A stretch of 64,000 nucleotides of DNA from Prevotella sp. (GTDB taxonomy: Bacteria > Bacteroidota > Bacteroidia > Bacteroidales > Bacteroidaceae), in assembly GCA_024684515.1 (NCBI GenBank), contig JAIKWS010000060.1:29673-93672 (forward strand), given 5' to 3'. A program made the translations under genes and the position numbers. Below, one piece after another: positions 29,960-40,515 of this stretch. The first letter of the stretch is position 1; each line of letters begins with the position of its first letter. Under the pieces are notes generated by a model that was not told the DNA's origin, searched no databases, and was given only the letters and a program-made list of their open reading frames with translations.

Positions 29960-31327
29960 TTACAGGAAGGGACGCAGCAGGTGTGCAAACCATCCGCGGA
30001 ACTTCTGCCAGCAGGTGCGGAACTGGTCCCATGTCTCAGGCGTGAGGTATACACTCTGCTGCTTGTCGCGATCGAACATCCGATCTAGTTCCATAGTCGT
30101 CTGACGGTCGATGATGACTGCATTCTCCTCATAGTCAAAACGTAGCGAGCGGGCATCGAGGTTCGTGCTGCCAACGGTGCAGAAGCGGCCGTCGACCATC
30201 ATGATCTTCGAGTGGTGGAAGCCGGGCTGATAGAGCCATACGTGAGCACCGTATTTCATCATCTTATGCATGTAGTAAAAGGCACAGTCGGGTGTGAGTG
30301 GTATGTCGCTCCTGGCAGAAATCATCAGTTCGACCTTCACCCCTCGCCGAATGGCCCTCTTCAGGGCTTTGTTGACGGAAGGAATCAGCGTAAAGTATGG
30401 ATTGATGATGCGGATGGAGTCCTGCGCGTCGTTGATGGCATTGACATAGAAATAGCGCATAGCGTCGTTCTTGCCGAGCAGCCGTCCATCGGGCAGCAAT
30501 GCCTTGCCAGGTTCGCGATTCACGACACCCACGAGCTTGTGCCCTGCGGTGGTGGTGGTATCGGGTTTCAGTCCACCCAGGAGCACCTGGCTGCCACCGC
30601 GGAAATAGCAGGTGTCGGTGAGCTCCTCGCCAGTAACCTTCTTCCACGTGCTGACGAAGATCTGCTGCAGGTCGTTGACGGTGCTCCCCTCAATCCTGCA
30701 ATGCATGTCGCGCCAGGCTCCCACCTGCTCGGTGCCCTTGATATAGTAGTCGGCCACGTTCATACCACCCGTATAGGCCACATTGCCGTCGATGACGACT
30801 ATCTTCCGATGGTCGCGAGGCCAGATGTGGTTAACCCAGGGGAACCGGATGGGGTCGAACTCGTAGATTTCAATGCTGTCGTTGCGTAGTGCCTCGACAT
30901 GATATTTCTTCAGGGGCTGATTGTTGGAGTCGTTGCCGAAGCCGTCAAAAAGAGCCCGTACCTCCACTCCTTCCTCCCTTTTCTGTCTCAGGATATCAAA
31001 GAGCAGCGATGCGATGCTGTCGTTGCGGAAGTTGAAATATTCCAGATGAATACTGTGTCGTGCCTGCCGGATGGCCGCAAACATATCGTCGAACTTCTCC
31101 TGTCCCGAGAAGAGTAGGGTGACGCTGTTGTCGGCAGAAAAGGCGATGCCATAATCACGCAACTGACGAAAGATGAGTGAGTCGGAGGTCTGTGCCGGCG
31201 CAGGGAGCAGAAAAGCCCAGCAGGCGAGGGTCACCCATAGTCTCCTGAGCAGGCGCGCAGAAGAGCAGACGTCCATTGTGGCCAGACGTCTGCAGCAAGA
31301 TGTTAACATGAGAGGTTTAGTGTTCAT
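29960..31327 (-). CDS. cls: Cardiolipin synthase-like phospholipase D protein
   Basis: This enzyme would condense phosphatidylglycerol into cardiolipin at the membrane. The protein (up to 455 residues) carries two HKD motifs: HRKIVVIDGNVAYTGGMN near 173 and HHSKIMMVDGRFCTVGSTN near 370. Unusually for Cls, the N-terminus looks like a cleavable signal (LLRRLWVTLACWAFLLPAPAQ) rather than two transmembrane helices. The second Met (MDVCSSARLL, 31276) may be the true start. It begins 4 nt after the large hybrid-regulator-like gene, at the end of the kdsA-kdsD operon. Confidence 0.87.
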   Translation of the reverse strand: MNTKPLMLTSCCRRLATMDVCSSARLLRRLWVTLACWAFLLPAPAQTSDSLIFRQLRDYGIAFSADNSVTLLFSGQEKFDDMFAAIRQARHSIHLEYFNFRNDSIASLLFDILRQKREEGVEVRALFDGFGNDSNNQPLKKYHVEALRNDSIEIYEFDPIRFPWVNHIWPRDHRKIVVIDGNVAYTGGMNVADYYIKGTEQVGAWRDMHCRIEGSTVNDLQQIFVSTWKKVTGEELTDTCYFRGGSQVLLGGLKPDTTTTAGHKLVGVVNREPGKALLPDGRLLGKNDAMRYFYVNAINDAQDSIRIINPYFTLIPSVNKALKRAIRRGVKVELMISARSDIPLTPDCAFYYMHKMMKYGAHVWLYQPGFHHSKIMMVDGRFCTVGSTNLDARSLRFDYEENAVIIDRQTTMELDRMFDRDKQQSVYLTPETWDQFRTCWQKFRGWFAHLLRPFL

Positions 31328-31331
31328 GGTC

Positions 31332-34300
31332 TTATTTTCGGTATCTCAATCTGTATTCCGATGGAGAAATACCAAAACGTTCTTTGAAAAGGGTGATGAA
31401 ATGCTCACCCGTAGCGAATCCGATATTGTTTGCCAATTCACTCATATTGATATTCGTACGCTGCAGGAGTACGCATGCATGTTTGAGACGTAGGTCACGT
31501 ACTACCTCTGCCGGTGTCTTTCCTGTGATGTCGCGCACCTTCTGGAAGAAAGGCTTCATTCCCATTCCCATTGCCGTTGCCATCTCCTCGAGTCCGATCG
31601 GTCCTCGGCTCATATTCTGCTGTACATATTGTTCGATGTTCATAATGAGCTGATTGTCAATGGCATCGTTCATGCTGAAGCTTTCAGGATCGAAATCGAA
31701 TGTCTCCTGGGCGGTAGCAAGTGGCGTTGGGGTGTCGTCTTCCGGTGTAGAACTGTCATCCGAGGGTTGGTTGATCATCCTGTCAGCCTCGTTAATCACC
31801 CTGTCAGTCTCTTTCAATACCCTCTCAGCCTCTCTGATGATGTCCTCAGGTCGATGGCTGCCGCTGTCCTGATGGGGTGCATCGCTAGCTTTTCTTCCGC
31901 TTTCCGCTGGCTTGTCGTCGCCGTTCTGTCCCGTCTTCTTGCCAGCATCATCCTTGGTCTTTTCAGCACCATTACCAGAATGCTGCCTTATGGATTTCAG
32001 TTCCAGGGTCTTGATCTCGTCGTCCTCCACCAGTTCGTTTTGCAGTTGCACATTGGTATCGAGCATAGTCTCTGTAGCCGTTGTCATGCTGGCGTTGCGA
32101 CTCTCGAGTAGTCGTGTTTCCGCCCCTTCGATGAGGTTGTTGGTAATCTCGTAGGCACCAATGCCAAAGAGTTTGTTGAAGCGCATAGCTGCCTCCTGTA
32201 TGTTGAAGGGCTTGGCCAGGTAGTCGTCGGCAGACAATGTGATATTCTGACTAGCCATTTCAGTGGGGCTAAGCTTCTTGTCGGTCATCAGCACCACCTT
32301 GATCTTGCTGAGTTTTGAATGTGTCTTGATATTGTTGCAAAGTTCACTACCCGTCATCCCTTCCATATCCTGCTTCACCACCACCATGTGTGGTATCATA
32401 GCCTCGATGTCGGTAGCAGCCTTTCTGATATCGTTGTATGGATGGAAGTCATACACATACTTCAGTCGTGCGCTGACAAATTTCAGGAATTCGATGTTGT
32501 CATCAATAAATACGATTCTGAACTTGGCAGTCGGCGAGTCGGATCGTGCCCGTATCTCGGATGTCAGCTCGTCGTTCATCAGTTCCGGCAAGTCAATCAC
32601 TCCTCTGCTGTTCAGCTCGAAGCTGCGATTGACGGATTTCTTAGCCTTGTCCTCCGGATGCTCGAGTGACGACTGCATATCGCTAACGCGTGTGATGACG
32701 GTGAGCATCTGCGAATGTAGGGCATTCAGCTGATCCCGCTCCTCGACGGTGACATCCCTTTCAGCCAGATTCATGATGATGGATGTCATTCTCGACATCG
32801 GCTGTCGCAGTTCGTCGCTGGCGGCCTTGATATCCTCCCGCTGCTGTGTCAGTTCGGCAATGATGGCATTCTTGCGTTTCCACATGCTGCGTATCTGGTC
32901 GATGCCTTTCTTCCATACATATATAATGGTAAAGACGACGATGCCGTAGAAGACCAGCATCCACCATTGCAGGTACCAGGGTTTCTCGACGACAATCTCA
33001 ATGGAGCGCTCCTCGTTGCTGATCTTTCCTTCGGCATTGATAGCCTTGACATGTAGTCGGTAGTGTCCGCTGGGCAGATTGTCGAAAGTCACGCCATGAT
33101 CGAGCGAGTTGCCATTGCGCCAGTCGTTGTCGTAGTTCTCCATCCAGTACATGAACTGCAGTCTCTCGCTCTGGTTGTAGTTGCCGGCAGCGAATTTGAA
33201 GGTGATATTGTTCTGATTGCTGTTCAGCCTGAGTGACGTACTCTCGTTAAGTGCCTGTGGCAGGACAACATTCTCGTCATAGGAGTGGCCTGTGAGAATT
33301 TCCTCTTCTCCGATGAAGAGCTGAGTGAGCATGACTGGTGGTAGTGCAGATCCGTCGTCGCCATTTTTCGTCTGCACACTACTGACGCCATATAGTCCAC
33401 CCATGACCACGTTGCCGTCTTTCGTGCTACGTATAGACCCCAGGTTGAACTCGTCGCTCTGCAGGCCATCGTTGGTGGTATAGTTGTATAGGCCATAGTC
33501 GTACGAGCCTGCATCGTGGTTACGCTGTACGACGATGCGACAGACGCCATTGGTAGTGGTAATCCACACATTCTTGTTCTCATCCTCGGCAATGCCGCAG
33601 ATATTATTGTTGCAGAGTCCTTGCTTCTCGGTGAGGATGTCAAGCCTGTCTTCCTCCAGGTCAAAGACGTTGACGCCCTCGCGTGTGCCCAGCCATATCA
33701 GTCCTCGTGAGTCTTCAAACACCTGCGTGATATAGTTGTTGGTGAATTTTTGCATATTGGTAGAATTGCCAATATACTGCTTAGTCTGCATGTTTGACAT
33801 GTTCAGCACGATAAGCCCTTCAGAGGATCCGATGAGCAACTTGTTGTCCGAGCCATAGAACACCGATGTGATATTGTTGGTGCTCAGCTTGCGGTTATTC
33901 TTCGTGTAGTTCGAGAACTGTCCTTGTCGCAGGTTGTACATGCTCAGTCCTCCGCTGGTGGCAATCCACAGGTTGCCCGTCCTGTCGGTGCACAATCCGT
34001 TAATATGATTGTCGGTAATCTTGCTCTTCAGACTGTCGCTGGTCGATGTGTAGATATGTGCCACTCCATTCTTGATGCGTGTGAGTCCGTTCTGTTTCGA
34101 CCCTACCCATATACTGCCGTCGGCGGTGATGGCCAGTGCTGTCACTTTCTGGCTGGCAAGGTGCCCTTCATATCCCACGATGCCGTTGTCGCTGGTTCCA
34201 TAGATCATGTTGCCCATGCTGTCCTGAGCCACCGCTGTGATGTCGCCAATGAGCTTCGACTCGAATTTGTAGATATTGTTTCCGAAATAGGCCACGCCGG

Positions 34301-35324
34301 CCTTTGCCGTTCCCACCCATAGCAGGTCACTATTGTCGACATAGACACTCTGCACGTTGGTCGTCTGCTCCAGTCGCTGATAGTTACGCATGCTGGTAAG
34401 GGTCACCTCTTCCATCGATAGCGTGTTGAAATTGACCTTCATCAGTCCGTGCCGGCTGGTGCCCATCCAGAGATTGCCACTATGGTCGGCAACTATCGAG
34501 TTGATCCCGAAATCGGCGTTGATACCCGTCAGTCCCAGCTGGTCGCCAATGGTAGTATTCCACGTCCTGGCATTCTTGTTGTAGACGAAAAGGGTGCCCT
34601 GGCCGTACATCCAGATATTGTCAAGGGGGTCTGCAAAGACTTTCAGCGTGTTGGTATTGCGCAGGTTGCGTTGTGCCACCTCTAGGCTTCTCCATGGTGA
34701 GGCCTGCTGTCGTGAGGCATCGCAACAGACGATACGTCCGTCGTCATAGACCACTACAGCACCGTCGCGACATTCGCCTATCGAGCAAATGTTGCCTTCC
34801 GGAATGGCATAGGCGCTGTTGTTATAGCCAAACTCGTAGATGAGTTGTTTCTGCAGATTATAGCAGAAGATGCCATTGGCGGGTATATATCCCCACATGT
34901 TCTGCCGGCTGTCGATATACACAATCTTAGGGGGTTCGGAAATACCTAGTTTGGCGAACACCTGCCTTAGGTCACGCTCGAAGCTTTCTGTCTGAGGATG
35001 ATAGATGCAATAGCCTGCTGCTGTCTTGATCCACAGGTCGCCACCTACAGCCTCCTGGATAGACTCGATGTAGCTGTCGGGTAGTGAGGAACCGTCCTGC
35101 GAGTCGGTCTGAAAATGCTTGAACAGATAGCCGTCGTACCTATATAGGCCAGCGGGAGTGCCAAACCACATGAATCCTCGTCCATCCTTGTATATGCAGT
35201 TGATCTGGCTAGAGGTCAGGCCGTTGCGTGTTCCTAGAGTCTTGAACAGGTATTGGGCAGTCAGGCCTTCCGGTAGGCAGAGCAACAGCGTCAATGCTAG
35301 TATGAATCGTCTTAATATCCTCAT
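31332..35324 (-). CDS. Degenerate hybrid two-component regulator (propeller, Y_Y_Y, pseudo-receiver, AraC)
   Basis: The 1330-residue protein has the outline of a Bacteroidota hybrid two-component system: signal peptide, a periplasmic two-component propeller region (about 25-690), Y_Y_Y domain (about 700-780), one transmembrane helix (about 786-806), receiver-like domain (about 930-1050) and AraC-type DNA-binding domain (about 1235-1330). The signalling core is broken. The H-box reads SDELRQPMSRM, with Asp in place of His; no HATPase N, G1 or G2 box is present; and the receiver has VVVKQDMEG, with Lys at the phospho-acceptor site. A disordered charged linker (about 1090-1220) precedes the AraC domain. 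It lies 19 nt after kdsD and 4 nt before cls. Confidence 0.85.
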   Translation of the reverse strand: MRILRRFILALTLLLCLPEGLTAQYLFKTLGTRNGLTSSQINCIYKDGRGFMWFGTPAGLYRYDGYLFKHFQTDSQDGSSLPDSYIESIQEAVGGDLWIKTAAGYCIYHPQTESFERDLRQVFAKLGISEPPKIVYIDSRQNMWGYIPANGIFCYNLQKQLIYEFGYNNSAYAIPEGNICSIGECRDGAVVVYDDGRIVCCDASRQQASPWRSLEVAQRNLRNTNTLKVFADPLDNIWMYGQGTLFVYNKNARTWNTTIGDQLGLTGINADFGINSIVADHSGNLWMGTSRHGLMKVNFNTLSMEEVTLTSMRNYQRLEQTTNVQSVYVDNSDLLWVGTAKAGVAYFGNNIYKFESKLIGDITAVAQDSMGNMIYGTSDNGIVGYEGHLASQKVTALAITADGSIWVGSKQNGLTRIKNGVAHIYTSTSDSLKSKITDNHINGLCTDRTGNLWIATSGGLSMYNLRQGQFSNYTKNNRKLSTNNITSVFYGSDNKLLIGSSEGLIVLNMSNMQTKQYIGNSTNMQKFTNNYITQVFEDSRGLIWLGTREGVNVFDLEEDRLDILTEKQGLCNNNICGIAEDENKNVWITTTNGVCRIVVQRNHDAGSYDYGLYNYTTNDGLQSDEFNLGSIRSTKDGNVVMGGLYGVSSVQTKNGDDGSALPPVMLTQLFIGEEEILTGHSYDENVVLPQALNESTSLRLNSNQNNITFKFAAGNYNQSERLQFMYWMENYDNDWRNGNSLDHGVTFDNLPSGHYRLHVKAINAEGKISNEERSIEIVVEKPWYLQWWMLVFYGIVVFTIIYVWKKGIDQIRSMWKRKNAIIAELTQQREDIKAASDELRQPMSRMTSIIMNLAERDVTVEERDQLNALHSQMLTVITRVSDMQSSLEHPEDKAKKSVNRSFELNSRGVIDLPELMNDELTSEIRARSDSPTAKFRIVFIDDNIEFLKFVSARLKYVYDFHPYNDIRKAATDIEAMIPHMVVVKQDMEGMTGSELCNNIKTHSKLSKIKVVLMTDKKLSPTEMASQNITLSADDYLAKPFNIQEAAMRFNKLFGIGAYEITNNLIEGAETRLLESRNASMTTATETMLDTNVQLQNELVEDDEIKTLELKSIRQHSGNGAEKTKDDAGKKTGQNGDDKPAESGRKASDAPHQDSGSHRPEDIIREAERVLKETDRVINEADRMINQPSDDSSTPEDDTPTPLATAQETFDFDPESFSMNDAIDNQLIMNIEQYVQQNMSRGPIGLEEMATAMGMGMKPFFQKVRDITGKTPAEVVRDLRLKHACVLLQRTNINMSELANNIGFATGEHFITLFKERFGISPSEYRLRYRK

Positions 35325-35343: not shown

Positions 35344-36291
35344 TTATATCATACAGGAGTAATGGTCGACAACTCCTATGAGTTTCCTATCATCGTCTAT
35401 GACAAGCACAGAGTGGATCTTGTGAGTCTGCATAATACGCTGTATCTCCGTAATCCTGGTCTGTGGATCCACAGTCTTGGGCTGCCGTGTCATGATATCG
35501 CTCACGGTATGGTCGAAGAATTCTGCCTGCCATCGCTCGATAGCCCTGCGGATATCGCCATCTGTGATCAGTCCCACCACACGTCCGTCCACCTCTGCCA
35601 CACCGAGTCCCAGCTTGCCCTCGCTTACCAGCATGATGGCCTGTCCAAGATGCAGGGTAGGCGAGAAGACCGGCAGGTCTGTCGACCGCATCACGTCGGC
35701 TGCCGTAGTGAGCAGCCTCTTGCCCAGCTCGCCACCAGGATGGAAATGTGCGAAGTCCTGCGGCTTGAACTGTCGTTTCTGCATCAGGGCGATAGCTAGA
35801 GCATCGCCCATAGCCAGTGTAGCAGTAGTTGAACTCGTGGGGGCGAGGTTCAAGGGACAAGCCTCTCGCTCAACGCTGATGTTCAGGTGATATTTCGAAT
35901 ATTTCGCCAGCAGCGACTGCGGATTGCCCGTCATGGCCACGATGGGTATCTGCTCCTGTAGCAGCATGGGTATGAAGCGTAGCAGCTCGTCTGTCTGTCC
36001 TGAATTGGAGATGGCCAGCACAACATCGTCGGGAGTCATCACGCCTAGGTCGCCATGATAGGCATCCAGGGGATTGACAAAGAACGACGGGGTGCCGGTA
36101 GAAGATAGCGTGGCGGCTATCTTGGCGCCAATGTGTCCGCTCTTGCCCACACCCGTGACGATGACCTTCCCCTTGCAGTCCAGCATCAGACTGACAGTCA
36201 GATCAAATTGTTCGTCCATCTTGGGAATCAGATCCAGCAGAGCCTCTGCCTCGTCCTTGATGGCTTGTATACCGTATTCGCGTATTGTCAT
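35344..36291 (-). CDS. kdsD: D-arabinose-5-phosphate isomerase (KdsD/KpsF/GutQ family)
   Basis: This enzyme converts ribulose-5-phosphate to D-arabinose-5-phosphate, the precursor of Kdo in the inner core of lipopolysaccharide. The 315-residue protein has a SIS domain (about 30-175) with VIVTGVGKSGHIGAKIAATL, the family segment DAYHGDLGVMTPDDVVLAISNSG and GDALAIALM. Two CBS domains follow (about 200-260 and 265-315). It overlaps kdsA by four bases (ATGA), so the two Kdo genes are translationally coupled, which separates it from GutQ-like paralogues. Confidence 0.94.
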   Translation of the reverse strand: MTIREYGIQAIKDEAEALLDLIPKMDEQFDLTVSLMLDCKGKVIVTGVGKSGHIGAKIAATLSSTGTPSFFVNPLDAYHGDLGVMTPDDVVLAISNSGQTDELLRFIPMLLQEQIPIVAMTGNPQSLLAKYSKYHLNISVEREACPLNLAPTSSTTATLAMGDALAIALMQKRQFKPQDFAHFHPGGELGKRLLTTAADVMRSTDLPVFSPTLHLGQAIMLVSEGKLGLGVAEVDGRVVGLITDGDIRRAIERWQAEFFDHTVSDIMTRQPKTVDPQTRITEIQRIMQTHKIHSVLVIDDDRKLIGVVDHYSCMI

Positions 36292-37052
36292 TGTAGTAGT
36301 TGCTTGATTAGACCCTCCAGGCGATTCAGTTCCAGCATATTGGCAGCATCGCTCAGCCCCTGGTCGGGATTGGGATGCACCTCGAAGAAAAAGCCTGTTG
36401 CACCAAAGGCTTTGGCTGCCATCGCCATAGAAGGTACGAAACGGCGGTCACCACCAGTCTTGCCCCCCTGTGCATCCGGACGCTGCACACTGTGCGTGCA
36501 GTCCATAATCACCGTAGGCACAATCTCCAGCATGTCGCAGATATTCCTGAAGTCTACTACCAGGTTGCCATAGCCCATCATGTTGCCTCGTTCCGTGAGC
36601 CAGATGTCCGTGGCTCCTGCCTCACGGGCTTTCTCCACAGGATATTGCATGTCACGGCCCGATAGGAACTGGGCCTTCTTGATATTGATGGTCTTGCCTG
36701 TCTGGGCAGCTGCCACGAGCAAGTCGGTCTGACGACATAGAAAGGCCGGAATCTGCAGGACATCGCAGACCTCAGCAGTTTCTCTGGCCTGCCAAGCTTC
36801 GTGAATGTCGGTCAGTATGCGAAGACCATAGCGGGCCTTAATGTCAGCTAACATCTGTAGACCCTTCTGCAGTCCAGGACCGCGGAAGGAATGGATGGAG
36901 GTACGGTTGGCCTTGTCGAAGGAAGCCTTGAATATGATGTCTGTCCCCAGCCGGCTATTGATGTCGACAAGTTGCTGGGCTACTACATCCAGCAGCTCGG
37001 CAGACTCAATGACACATGGCCCGGCAATCAGGGTGATTTTCTTTTGAGACAT
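36288..37052 (-). CDS. kdsA: 3-deoxy-8-phosphooctulonate (Kdo-8-P) synthase
   Basis: This enzyme condenses arabinose-5-phosphate with phosphoenolpyruvate to Kdo-8-phosphate. The 254-residue protein has the family motifs ITLIAGPCVIESAE at about 6-19, IFKASFDKANRTSIHSFRGPG near 41-61, ILTDIHEAWQA, AFLCRQTDLL and GDRRFVPSMAMAAKAFGATGFFFE. It is somewhat shorter than E. coli KdsA (284) but complete. It leads the operon and has a clear promoter 27 nt upstream. kdsD, the degenerate regulator and cls follow. Confidence 0.96.
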   Translation of the reverse strand: MSQKKITLIAGPCVIESAELLDVVAQQLVDINSRLGTDIIFKASFDKANRTSIHSFRGPGLQKGLQMLADIKARYGLRILTDIHEAWQARETAEVCDVLQIPAFLCRQTDLLVAAAQTGKTINIKKAQFLSGRDMQYPVEKAREAGATDIWLTERGNMMGYGNLVVDFRNICDMLEIVPTVIMDCTHSVQRPDAQGGKTGGDRRFVPSMAMAAKAFGATGFFFEVHPNPDQGLSDAANMLELNRLEGLIKQLLQ

Positions 37053-37078
37053 GAACGCGTGTATTTTATTTCAACGTG

Positions 37079-37110
37079 CAAAGATAATAATTTTGTTTTA
37101 TTCTTGCAAG
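37079..37110 (-). promoter_or_regulatory. Promoter of the kdsA operon
   Basis: On the minus strand TTG (37109-37107) is followed by 20 nt and TATCTTTG (37086-37079), matching the Bacteroidota pattern. The kdsA ATG at 37052 is 27 nt downstream. Confidence 0.7.
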
Positions 37111-38184: not shown

Positions 38185-40515
38185 TCAGAACAGCAGTCCT
38201 ATCTGATATACTAGAGCAGAGACTACCCAGGCGACGACTGTGGTGTAGATGGCGGTTGCGATAGCCCATCGCCATGATCCCGTCTCGTTCTTGATGGCAG
38301 CGATAGTGGCTATGCAGGGGAAATAGAGCAATACGAAGAGCAGATAGCAGTAGGCCACGAGTGGGGTGATGGCTGATAGACCTCCCAGCACACCGATGGT
38401 TGAAGCTACAATCTCCTTTGCTCCCACGCCAGCTATCAGACTGACATCTAGCTGCCAGTCGAAGCCCTGCAGGGCGAACAGTGGTTCGATGGCCTGTCCC
38501 ATGATACCGATGAAACTCTCTTCCATGGTTGGAGCAACGCCCATAGTGCCGAAATAGCCTAGTGCCCAGACAATGATGCTGGCTACGAGGATGATGCCTC
38601 CCATCTTCTTCAGATATTCCTTGCCCTTCTCCCAGGTGTGGCGCATCGTAGCTTTCCATGTGGGCCAGCGATAGGGTGGCAGCTCCATCACGAATGGTGT
38701 GTCCTCGCCCTTGATGACGAAGCGGGATAGGATCTTGCTCACGATGACAGCCATAAGGATGCCGACAACATAGAGCGATATCATGACCCACGATCGGTAC
38801 TGGGCAGCAAAGAAGGTGCCAGTAACCATGATATAGATGGGCAGCCGTGCCGAACATGACATGAACGGCAGCACAAGCATCGTGATGAGCCGTGAGCGGC
38901 GGCTCTCTACGGTACGGGTGGCCATAACGGCAGGCACGTTACACCCAAAGCCCATGATCAGGGGGATGAAGGACTTGCCGTGAAGCCCCATCTTATGCAT
39001 CAGTCGATCCATGATGAAGGCAGCACGAGCCATATAGCCCGAGTCTTCCATGAACGAGATGAAGAGATAGAGTATGAGTATCTGTGGCAGGAACACGATG
39101 ACGGCTCCCACACCACCTATCACGCCATCGACAAGCATCGAACGCAGTGGGCCTTCCGGCATGGTGGCACCTATCCACTCGCCAAGCCACTCGACGCCAG
39201 CCTCAATCCAGTCCATGGGATACTGACCAATGGTGAAGGTGACATGAAACATGACGAAGAGGATGAGGAAGAAGATGGGGAAGCCCACGTACTTGCTCGA
39301 CAGCACACGATCGATGAGATGTGTGGTGCGATAGGTATCTTCCTTGGTGCCCGTCTGATAGCCAGCCTCTGTCAGGGCACCATTGATGAAACCGTATTTG
39401 GCATCCATGATGGCAGTCTCGGCATCAGAGCCTGTCTCCTCCAGCACACGTGATGCCGCACGGTCGCGGGCTTCTTTCACGGGTACAGAGAGCAGATGGT
39501 CTACGGCTTTGTCACCCTCCAGCATCTTGATGGCCAGATAACGGGTGGAGAGACTCTTGTGGATGCTGTCGTCAGCCTTCAGATAGCGCTGGATATCCTT
39601 GATGCCCTGTTCTATCTCGTGACCATAGTTGATATGCAGGTGACGTGCCTCGCGACTGCGTCCCTCATACACCTGGATGACAGCCCTGAAGAGGTCCTTG
39701 ACACCTTGTCCGGATTTGAACGAGGTGGGGATCATTGGCATACCAAAGAGCGTGGAGAGCATCTTCAGGTCTACATTATCGCCACGACGCTCGAACTCGT
39801 CGTACATATTCAGGGCACCTACCACACGCAGGTCCATGTCCACGAGCTGGGTGGTAAGATAGAGGTTGCGCTCCAGATTGCTGGAGTCGATGACGTTGAT
39901 GACCACATCGGGCATCTGCTCCTGCAGGTAGTTGCGCACGTAGAGCTCTTCTGGCGAATAGCACGACAGCGAGTAGGTGCCTGGCAGGTCAATGAGGTTG
40001 AACTCGTATCCGAACATCGACGCATGTGCCTCGCTGGCATCGACGGTGACACCGCTATAGTTGCCAACTCGTCCGTGGGCACCGCTGGCGAAATTGAAGA
40101 GTGAGGTCTTGCCGCAGTTGGGATTGCCAATCAGCGCCACATTGATGGTACGTCGCTCGCGAAGGGCCTCGTGGATGCCTTCCTCCTCCAGGGAAACCGC
40201 CTCGGAGGAGAATGTCTCGGCAGACAGCCCGCTATTGGACTGCCACACTCCAAGTCTAGACAGTCCAATAGCGGGCTGTCTAGACTTGGAGTGTGGCGTA
40301 TAGACTTCGATCATCTCAGCCTCCTGCCGGCGCAGACTGACCTCATAGCCCATCACCTTGTATTTGACAGGATCTTGCAGGGGAGCATTCAGCAGCACGT
40401 CGATGGTCTTGCCTTTCACAAAGCCCATTTCAACAATGCGCTTGCGGAAGCCGCCATGTCCATGCACCTTTACAATGACACCCTGTTCGCCTGTTTTTAG
40501 TTCCGATAGTTTCAT
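38185..40515 (-). CDS. feoB: Ferrous iron transporter, FeoA-FeoB fusion
   Basis: This protein imports Fe2+ across the inner membrane using a GTPase domain. The 776-residue product joins a FeoA (SH3-like) domain (about 1-72, KLSELKTGEQGVIVKVHG) to FeoB. The G protein part has GNPNCGKTSLFNFASG near 129, the G3 motif DLPGTYSL and the G4-like motif NMYDE. The membrane part (about 390-776) has many helices and the Gate signature CNVPAVMATRTVESRR. The linker between FeoA and FeoB (about residues 74-98) is encoded by an interlocked double palindrome, described separately. The -7 box TAACTTTG lies 20 nt upstream. Confidence 0.96.
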   Translation of the reverse strand: MKLSELKTGEQGVIVKVHGHGGFRKRIVEMGFVKGKTIDVLLNAPLQDPVKYKVMGYEVSLRRQEAEMIEVYTPHSKSRQPAIGLSRLGVWQSNSGLSAETFSSEAVSLEEEGIHEALRERRTINVALIGNPNCGKTSLFNFASGAHGRVGNYSGVTVDASEAHASMFGYEFNLIDLPGTYSLSCYSPEELYVRNYLQEQMPDVVINVIDSSNLERNLYLTTQLVDMDLRVVGALNMYDEFERRGDNVDLKMLSTLFGMPMIPTSFKSGQGVKDLFRAVIQVYEGRSREARHLHINYGHEIEQGIKDIQRYLKADDSIHKSLSTRYLAIKMLEGDKAVDHLLSVPVKEARDRAASRVLEETGSDAETAIMDAKYGFINGALTEAGYQTGTKEDTYRTTHLIDRVLSSKYVGFPIFFLILFVMFHVTFTIGQYPMDWIEAGVEWLGEWIGATMPEGPLRSMLVDGVIGGVGAVIVFLPQILILYLFISFMEDSGYMARAAFIMDRLMHKMGLHGKSFIPLIMGFGCNVPAVMATRTVESRRSRLITMLVLPFMSCSARLPIYIMVTGTFFAAQYRSWVMISLYVVGILMAVIVSKILSRFVIKGEDTPFVMELPPYRWPTWKATMRHTWEKGKEYLKKMGGIILVASIIVWALGYFGTMGVAPTMEESFIGIMGQAIEPLFALQGFDWQLDVSLIAGVGAKEIVASTIGVLGGLSAITPLVAYCYLLFVLLYFPCIATIAAIKNETGSWRWAIATAIYTTVVAWVVSALVYQIGLLF
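40222..40296. repeat. Interlocked inverted repeats A-B-A'-B' inside feoAB
   Basis: A (40222-40242, 21 bp) is the exact reverse complement of A' (40261-40281). B (40243-40260, 18 bp, CCACACTCCAAGTCTAGA) is the exact reverse complement of B' (40279-40296). The arms alternate, so either two mutually exclusive hairpins or one pseudoknot could form. The 75-bp element keeps the reading frame and encodes about 25 residues of the FeoA-FeoB linker. Confidence 0.93.

Follow-up and report, generated by a model that had tools for sequence, protein, structure and literature searches.

The protein encoded at 31332-35324 on the minus strand of the window (the whole stretch of 64,000 nucleotides of Prevotella sp. 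DNA analyzed here) has, by its sequence, lost the phosphorelay chemistry of the hybrid two-component systems (HTCSs). We consider it probable that it is a one-component regulator in the membrane that descends from an HTCS and operates independently of phosphorylation, with the former kinase hairpin and a pseudo-receiver serving as a mechanical relay; a change of shape alone is most likely what carries its signal to DNA.

Architecture and active-site residues of the regulator

The open reading frame occupies exactly these coordinates on this strand and comprises the following features:

31332..35324 (-), whole gene of the kinase-less, HTCS-derived regulator, 1330 aa (ORF, Pfam, orthologues)
33195..35255 (-), periplasmic Reg_prop propellers, residues 24-710 (Pfam Reg_prop, 1.5e-32)
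32988..33182 (-), Y_Y_Y domain, residues 715-779 (Pfam, 7.2e-12)
32910..32972 (-), predicted membrane helix, residues about 785-805 (hydrophobic stretch; begins one long model helix)
32661..32882 (-), pseudo-DHp two-helix hairpin, residues 815-888 (model helices 783-855 and 860-888; omega 0-0.08 in close pairs)
32814..32816 (-), codon for Asp837, which takes the place of the phospho-His in SDELRQP (none of the 42 orthologues has His: D35/E6/N1)
32169..32525 (-), pseudo-receiver, residues 934-1052 (Pfam Response_reg, 1.6e-10; receiver fold, pLDDT about 75-91; PDB receiver matches)
32373..32375 (-), codon for Lys984, in place of the acceptor Asp (K in 42/42 orthologues)
32070..32144 (-), conserved post-receiver motif LIEGAETRxLExxNxSMTTATE (orthologue alignment, 73% mean pairwise identity)
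31680..32069 (-), charged disordered linker, longer in this species (orthologue alignment, 18% identity with 65% gaps; pLDDT mostly <50)
31341..31661 (-), AraC-type DNA-binding domain, residues 1222-1328 (Pfam HTH_18, 8.4e-18; 74% mean pairwise identity)

The propeller, Y_Y_Y domain, membrane helix, receiver fold, and AraC domain named in the original prediction were all found by Pfam, as a hydrophobic stretch, or in the structural model. The sensor matches the solved HTCS sensors 4a2l (E=5.5e-70) and 3v9f, and the AraC domain, for which Pfam reports HTH_AraC as well as HTH_18 (E<=10), is the best conserved domain among the orthologues. The predicted absence of an ATPase domain was borne out: no HATPase, hidden or otherwise, was detected in the reading frame by Pfam at E<=10, HisKA appeared only as a noise-level match (E=7.7), and the hairpin is separated from the receiver by only about 45 residues, which leaves no room for an ATPase domain. 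In the AlphaFold2 model, built with four sequences, a single long helix runs from the membrane into the hairpin and is followed by a second helix, the receiver fold is well predicted, the AraC domain is present, and residues 1057-1216 are mostly disordered; Foldseek matches of the model are PDB receivers and AraC domains, while the pTM of 0.30 means that the arrangement of the domains is not reliable. The protein thus has the Reg_prop and Y_Y_Y periplasmic sensor and the C-terminal AraC domain of an HTCS; it has no HisKA domain with a phospho-His, no HATPase, no receiver with an acceptor Asp, and no complete S/CHIP-DK latch, a feature of most HTCSs. Its receiver fold without acceptor Asp (Pfam, orthologues, model, and PDB matches) is that of a pseudo-receiver or aspartate-less receiver (ALR), and sensor, membrane helix, and DNA-binding domain in one chain without phosphotransfer, as read from sequence and model, are the features of a transmembrane transcription regulator (TTR).

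An orthologue is present in 58 of 149 other genomes of the same genus, 57 of them matching at 1366-1852 bits and one, a fragment, at 509 bits with 70% identity, and the remaining matches fall below 480 bits. A survey of named genomes yielded at least three orthologues among the matches listed, from uncultured Prevotella and Prevotellaceae, and an order-level search with a strict cut-off returned, besides the window itself, just two proteins, whose reading frames are as long as those of full HTCSs. In the alignment of 42 orthologues, which includes the window protein (two members, L031 and L096, are identical), the Asp predicted in place of the phospho-His and the Lys predicted in place of the acceptor Asp both recur as family characters, the former position being occupied by Asp, Glu, or Asn and the latter invariably by Lys. 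Comparison with these orthologues and with canonical HTCSs from the same genome, a check that the original prediction named as able to refute it, puts neither His nor the acceptor Asp in the active sites of the protein. By comparison, His is absent from 0.9% of HisKA domains and Asp from 2.0% of receivers surveyed (PMC12632262). In the same genome, His, ATPase, and acceptor Asp are all present in the full HTCSs L078, L079, L080, and L082, so the losses are particular to the protein at 31332-35324.

In the receiver, the first acidic residue is Asp and the switch Lys is present in 42/42 orthologues, Thr in 41/42, and a Tyr at K-3 in 42/42. Since the allosteric Tyr and Thr are kept, conformational switching may remain. 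The T+1 residue is mostly small in working receivers (PMC12632262) and is Asp, Glu, or Asn in all 42 orthologues, which is a further argument against phosphorylation. In close pairs, the hairpin has an omega of 0-0.08 and the pseudo-receiver one of 0.03-0.12, compared with 0.04-0.10 in the sensor and 0.02-0.05 in the AraC domain; these values come from a custom Nei-Gojobori-type script and are approximate, with synonymous sites near saturation in wider pairs. Every domain, including both dead ones, is under purifying selection, and such selection on dead catalytic residues indicates a working protein.

Proposed relay and alternative explanations

In canonical HTCSs, a latch between the receiver (S/CHIP) and the DNA-binding domain (D, K) holds the protein off DNA until phosphorylation (Gao et al. 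2024, PMC11253607), and substitutions in the latch motif of BT4124 and BT4663 lead to phosphorylation-independent DNA binding (PMC11253607). In our family the receiver side of the latch is gone (Pro replaced by Lys in 38/42 orthologues) and the DNA-binding side is kept (Asp in 42/42, Lys or Arg in 42/42); several full HTCSs near the family in the tree also deviate at the latch motif when inspected by eye. A weakened latch could have let phosphate-free operation arise, after which the hairpin and pseudo-receiver would have come to relay conformational change. A periplasmic ligand, perhaps a glycan or an envelope fragment, would move the propeller/Y_Y_Y sensor; the movement would pass through the membrane helix to the retained pseudo-DHp hairpin, which has neither ATPase nor His and is presumably dimeric, and from the hairpin through the pseudo-receiver and a flexible tether, altering how two AraC domains pair on DNA. 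Dimerization, the mechanical relay, the ligand, and the target promoters are the parts of this scheme that we infer.

The charged linker noted in the original prediction is indeed long and is predicted to be disordered; its length, proposed there as a departure from standard members, is found in this species and only a few more, the majority of orthologues being shorter by 60-80 aa, and linker length as a family trait was rejected as species-specific on the orthologue alignment. A long linker, disordered in the model and opened by a conserved peptide, could favor cleavage of the C-terminal part (pseudo-receiver, linker, and AraC domain) from the membrane to act as a soluble regulator. We regard such release as unlikely, given that linker sequence and length are not conserved, that the operon contains no protease gene, and that canonical HTCSs operate in membrane-tethered form. 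Slightly less likely still is a role as a modulator of canonical HTCSs, through mixed hairpin dimers or competition for DNA sites, with output following their phosphorelay. The strong conservation of the hairpin and the presence of at least four full HTCSs in the same genome speak for such a role; however, the AraC domain lies on a long branch apart from those of full HTCSs, and the hairpin motif SDELRQPMSRM differs from the HELRTPLTL-type motif of the HTCSs in this genome.

Alternatively, the protein could still be controlled through a modification, phosphorylation or some other, of an unusual residue, for example Asp986 (D+2) or Lys984. Many orthologues have Asp, Glu, or Asn at D+2, Lys984 is invariant, and Lys acetylation has been reported for GlnR, another pseudo-receiver protein (PMC12632262), but L016 and L019 carry Ala or Ser at D+2, T+1 is not small, and the kinase domain is gone; we therefore judge this explanation very improbable. 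Decay of the gene, which the missing domains, replaced catalytic residues, and lineage losses might suggest, can be practically discounted in view of 42 open, full-length orthologues with invariant replacements and omega no higher than about 0.1 in the hairpin, the receiver, and the AraC domain, which speaks against decay genus-wide. The phosphorylation-independent, one-component regulator remains our preferred reading.

Relatives and gene neighborhood

Distant homologs in other genera of the family are at differing stages of loss. The g2 proteins (L092, L093) have no ATPase, carry Glu at both the His and acceptor positions, and are encoded a few genes away from cls; those of g8 have neither HisKA nor ATPase, with the acceptor Asp kept in L094, which adjoins cls, and replaced by Ser in the other g8 proteins looked at. 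For both groups the acceptor residue was identified by visual inspection of the sequences. In g13, two HTCS-like proteins (L209:4263-8222 and L212:4746-8705) retain HisKA and HATPase and have a deleted receiver, while L208 and L210, from two genomes, have lost both kinase and receiver and retain the sensor, the membrane helix, an acidic linker, and the AraC domain, which strengthens the one-component reading. The direct signaling to DNA proposed in the original prediction, which we likewise infer, is supported and gains further weight from relatives with such losses. Three observations stand beside these: the L209 and L212 kinases have no obvious in-chain acceptor, one in-frame TAG (L092:8614-8938) occurs near the N-terminus of a g2 homolog and may be a sequencing error or a lesion, and the genome of the window protein encodes an 824-aa Reg_prop/Y_Y_Y/AraC protein (L081:3364-5838, minus strand) without kinase or receiver, a one-component architecture.

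The sensor tree joins g1 and g2 at 96 and places the g13 group within the full HTCSs. One shared origin for every protein without a phosphorelay was rejected by the AU test (p = 4e-6), while a common origin of g1 and g2 with g8 is compatible with it (p = 0.47). It follows that, within our sample, this part of the HTCS family has seen at least two losses of the phosphorelay. On balance, we lean towards a wider account in which a branch of HTCSs gave rise at least twice to phosphate-free, one-component membrane regulators, with intermediates still alive today (loss of the ATPase; Asp, Glu, Lys, or Ser at the acceptor position; deletion of the receiver with the kinase kept; deletion of both), and in which the Prevotella line, with an invariant Lys where the active site used to be, turned its dead hairpin and receiver into a mechanical relay.

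The regulator gene lies between kdsD and a cls-like gene, with kdsA upstream and all on one strand:

36288..37052 (-), kdsA, first gene of the putative operon (Pfam DAHP_synth_1; gene order conserved)
35344..36291 (-), kdsD (Pfam SIS and CBS)
29960..31327 (-), cls-like phospholipase D family protein, downstream of the regulator (Pfam PLDc_2)
37078..37086 (-), possible Bacteroidales -7 box (TATCTTTGC) of the kdsA promoter (by eye in upstream sequences; low confidence)

In 55 of 59 genomes, this one included, kdsD is directly upstream of the regulator, and cls is the next gene in all 20 carrier loci examined, often with a 4-nt overlap; in 20 kdsD loci of non-carrier genomes, cls comes directly after kdsD. 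Carriers and non-carriers are intermixed in the kdsA+kdsD+cls tree, some nodes of which are weak. This pattern fits ancestral presence with several clean losses, although carriers may instead have gained the regulator by transfer. The apparent clean loss from several lineages implies that the gene is dispensable. Envelope biosynthesis is a plausible context; upstream of kdsA in carriers, no conserved operator was found beyond promoter-like boxes seen by eye. A literature search reaching a minority of subscription journals found nothing on this gene order and no papers on this family. Elsewhere in the window, nested inverted repeats lie within the feoB reading frame (40222-40297), with 25-nt arms 96% and 21-nt arms 100% complementary; one arm sequence has no other copy in the genome with three mismatches allowed.

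Comparison with known systems

Pseudo-receivers, SusR-like regulators, and TTRs are already known, and BT4236 has been proposed to work without phosphorylation (PMC11253607); the apparent novelty lies in a conserved family in which both halves are dead and intermediates survive. Descent of membrane-bound one-component regulators from two-component systems was suggested previously (PMC10269533), and the living intermediates make the order of losses and the mechanism directly testable, so that the family is a good test case for this transition. It also poses the question of what role a receiver and a kinase hairpin have once their chemistry is gone; a 2025 review of pseudo-receivers calls their switching mechanisms a mystery (PMC12632262). 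The annotation "hybrid kinase" would be misleading for such proteins.

The protein shares with the Bacteroides HTCSs BT4663 and BT4124 the Reg_prop/Y_Y_Y sensor, membrane helix, receiver fold, and AraC domain, indicating common descent, and differs from them in having no HATPase, phospho-His, acceptor Asp, or receiver half of the S/CHIP-DK latch. BT4236 of B. thetaiotaomicron, whose proposed independence of phosphorylation goes with a Gln at the phospho-His position and a non-consensus latch (PMC11253607), is similar by description and is listed among the B. thetaiotaomicron HTCSs, whereas our family also lacks the ATPase and the acceptor Asp. SusR-like regulators are membrane proteins with a periplasmic sensor and a cytoplasmic DNA-binding domain, which in SusR is described as unlike other factors (PMC3878776). 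Our protein has the same general plan; in contrast to SusR, as described, its DNA-binding domain is of the AraC type and it keeps the hairpin and pseudo-receiver.

RitR, ChxR, and HP1043 are soluble regulators. Their receiver folds have no acceptor Asp or do not need Asp phosphorylation (PMC4395418, PMC12632262), whereas our pseudo-receiver is part of a membrane sensor chain, has Lys at the acceptor position, and mostly keeps the acidic pair. The TTRs, such as ToxR and CadC, are one-component and membrane-bound, and their descent from two-component systems has been suggested (PMC10269533, the text of which does not mention AraC). Our protein appears to be one-component and membrane-bound as they are, but keeps visible remnants of both two-component parts.
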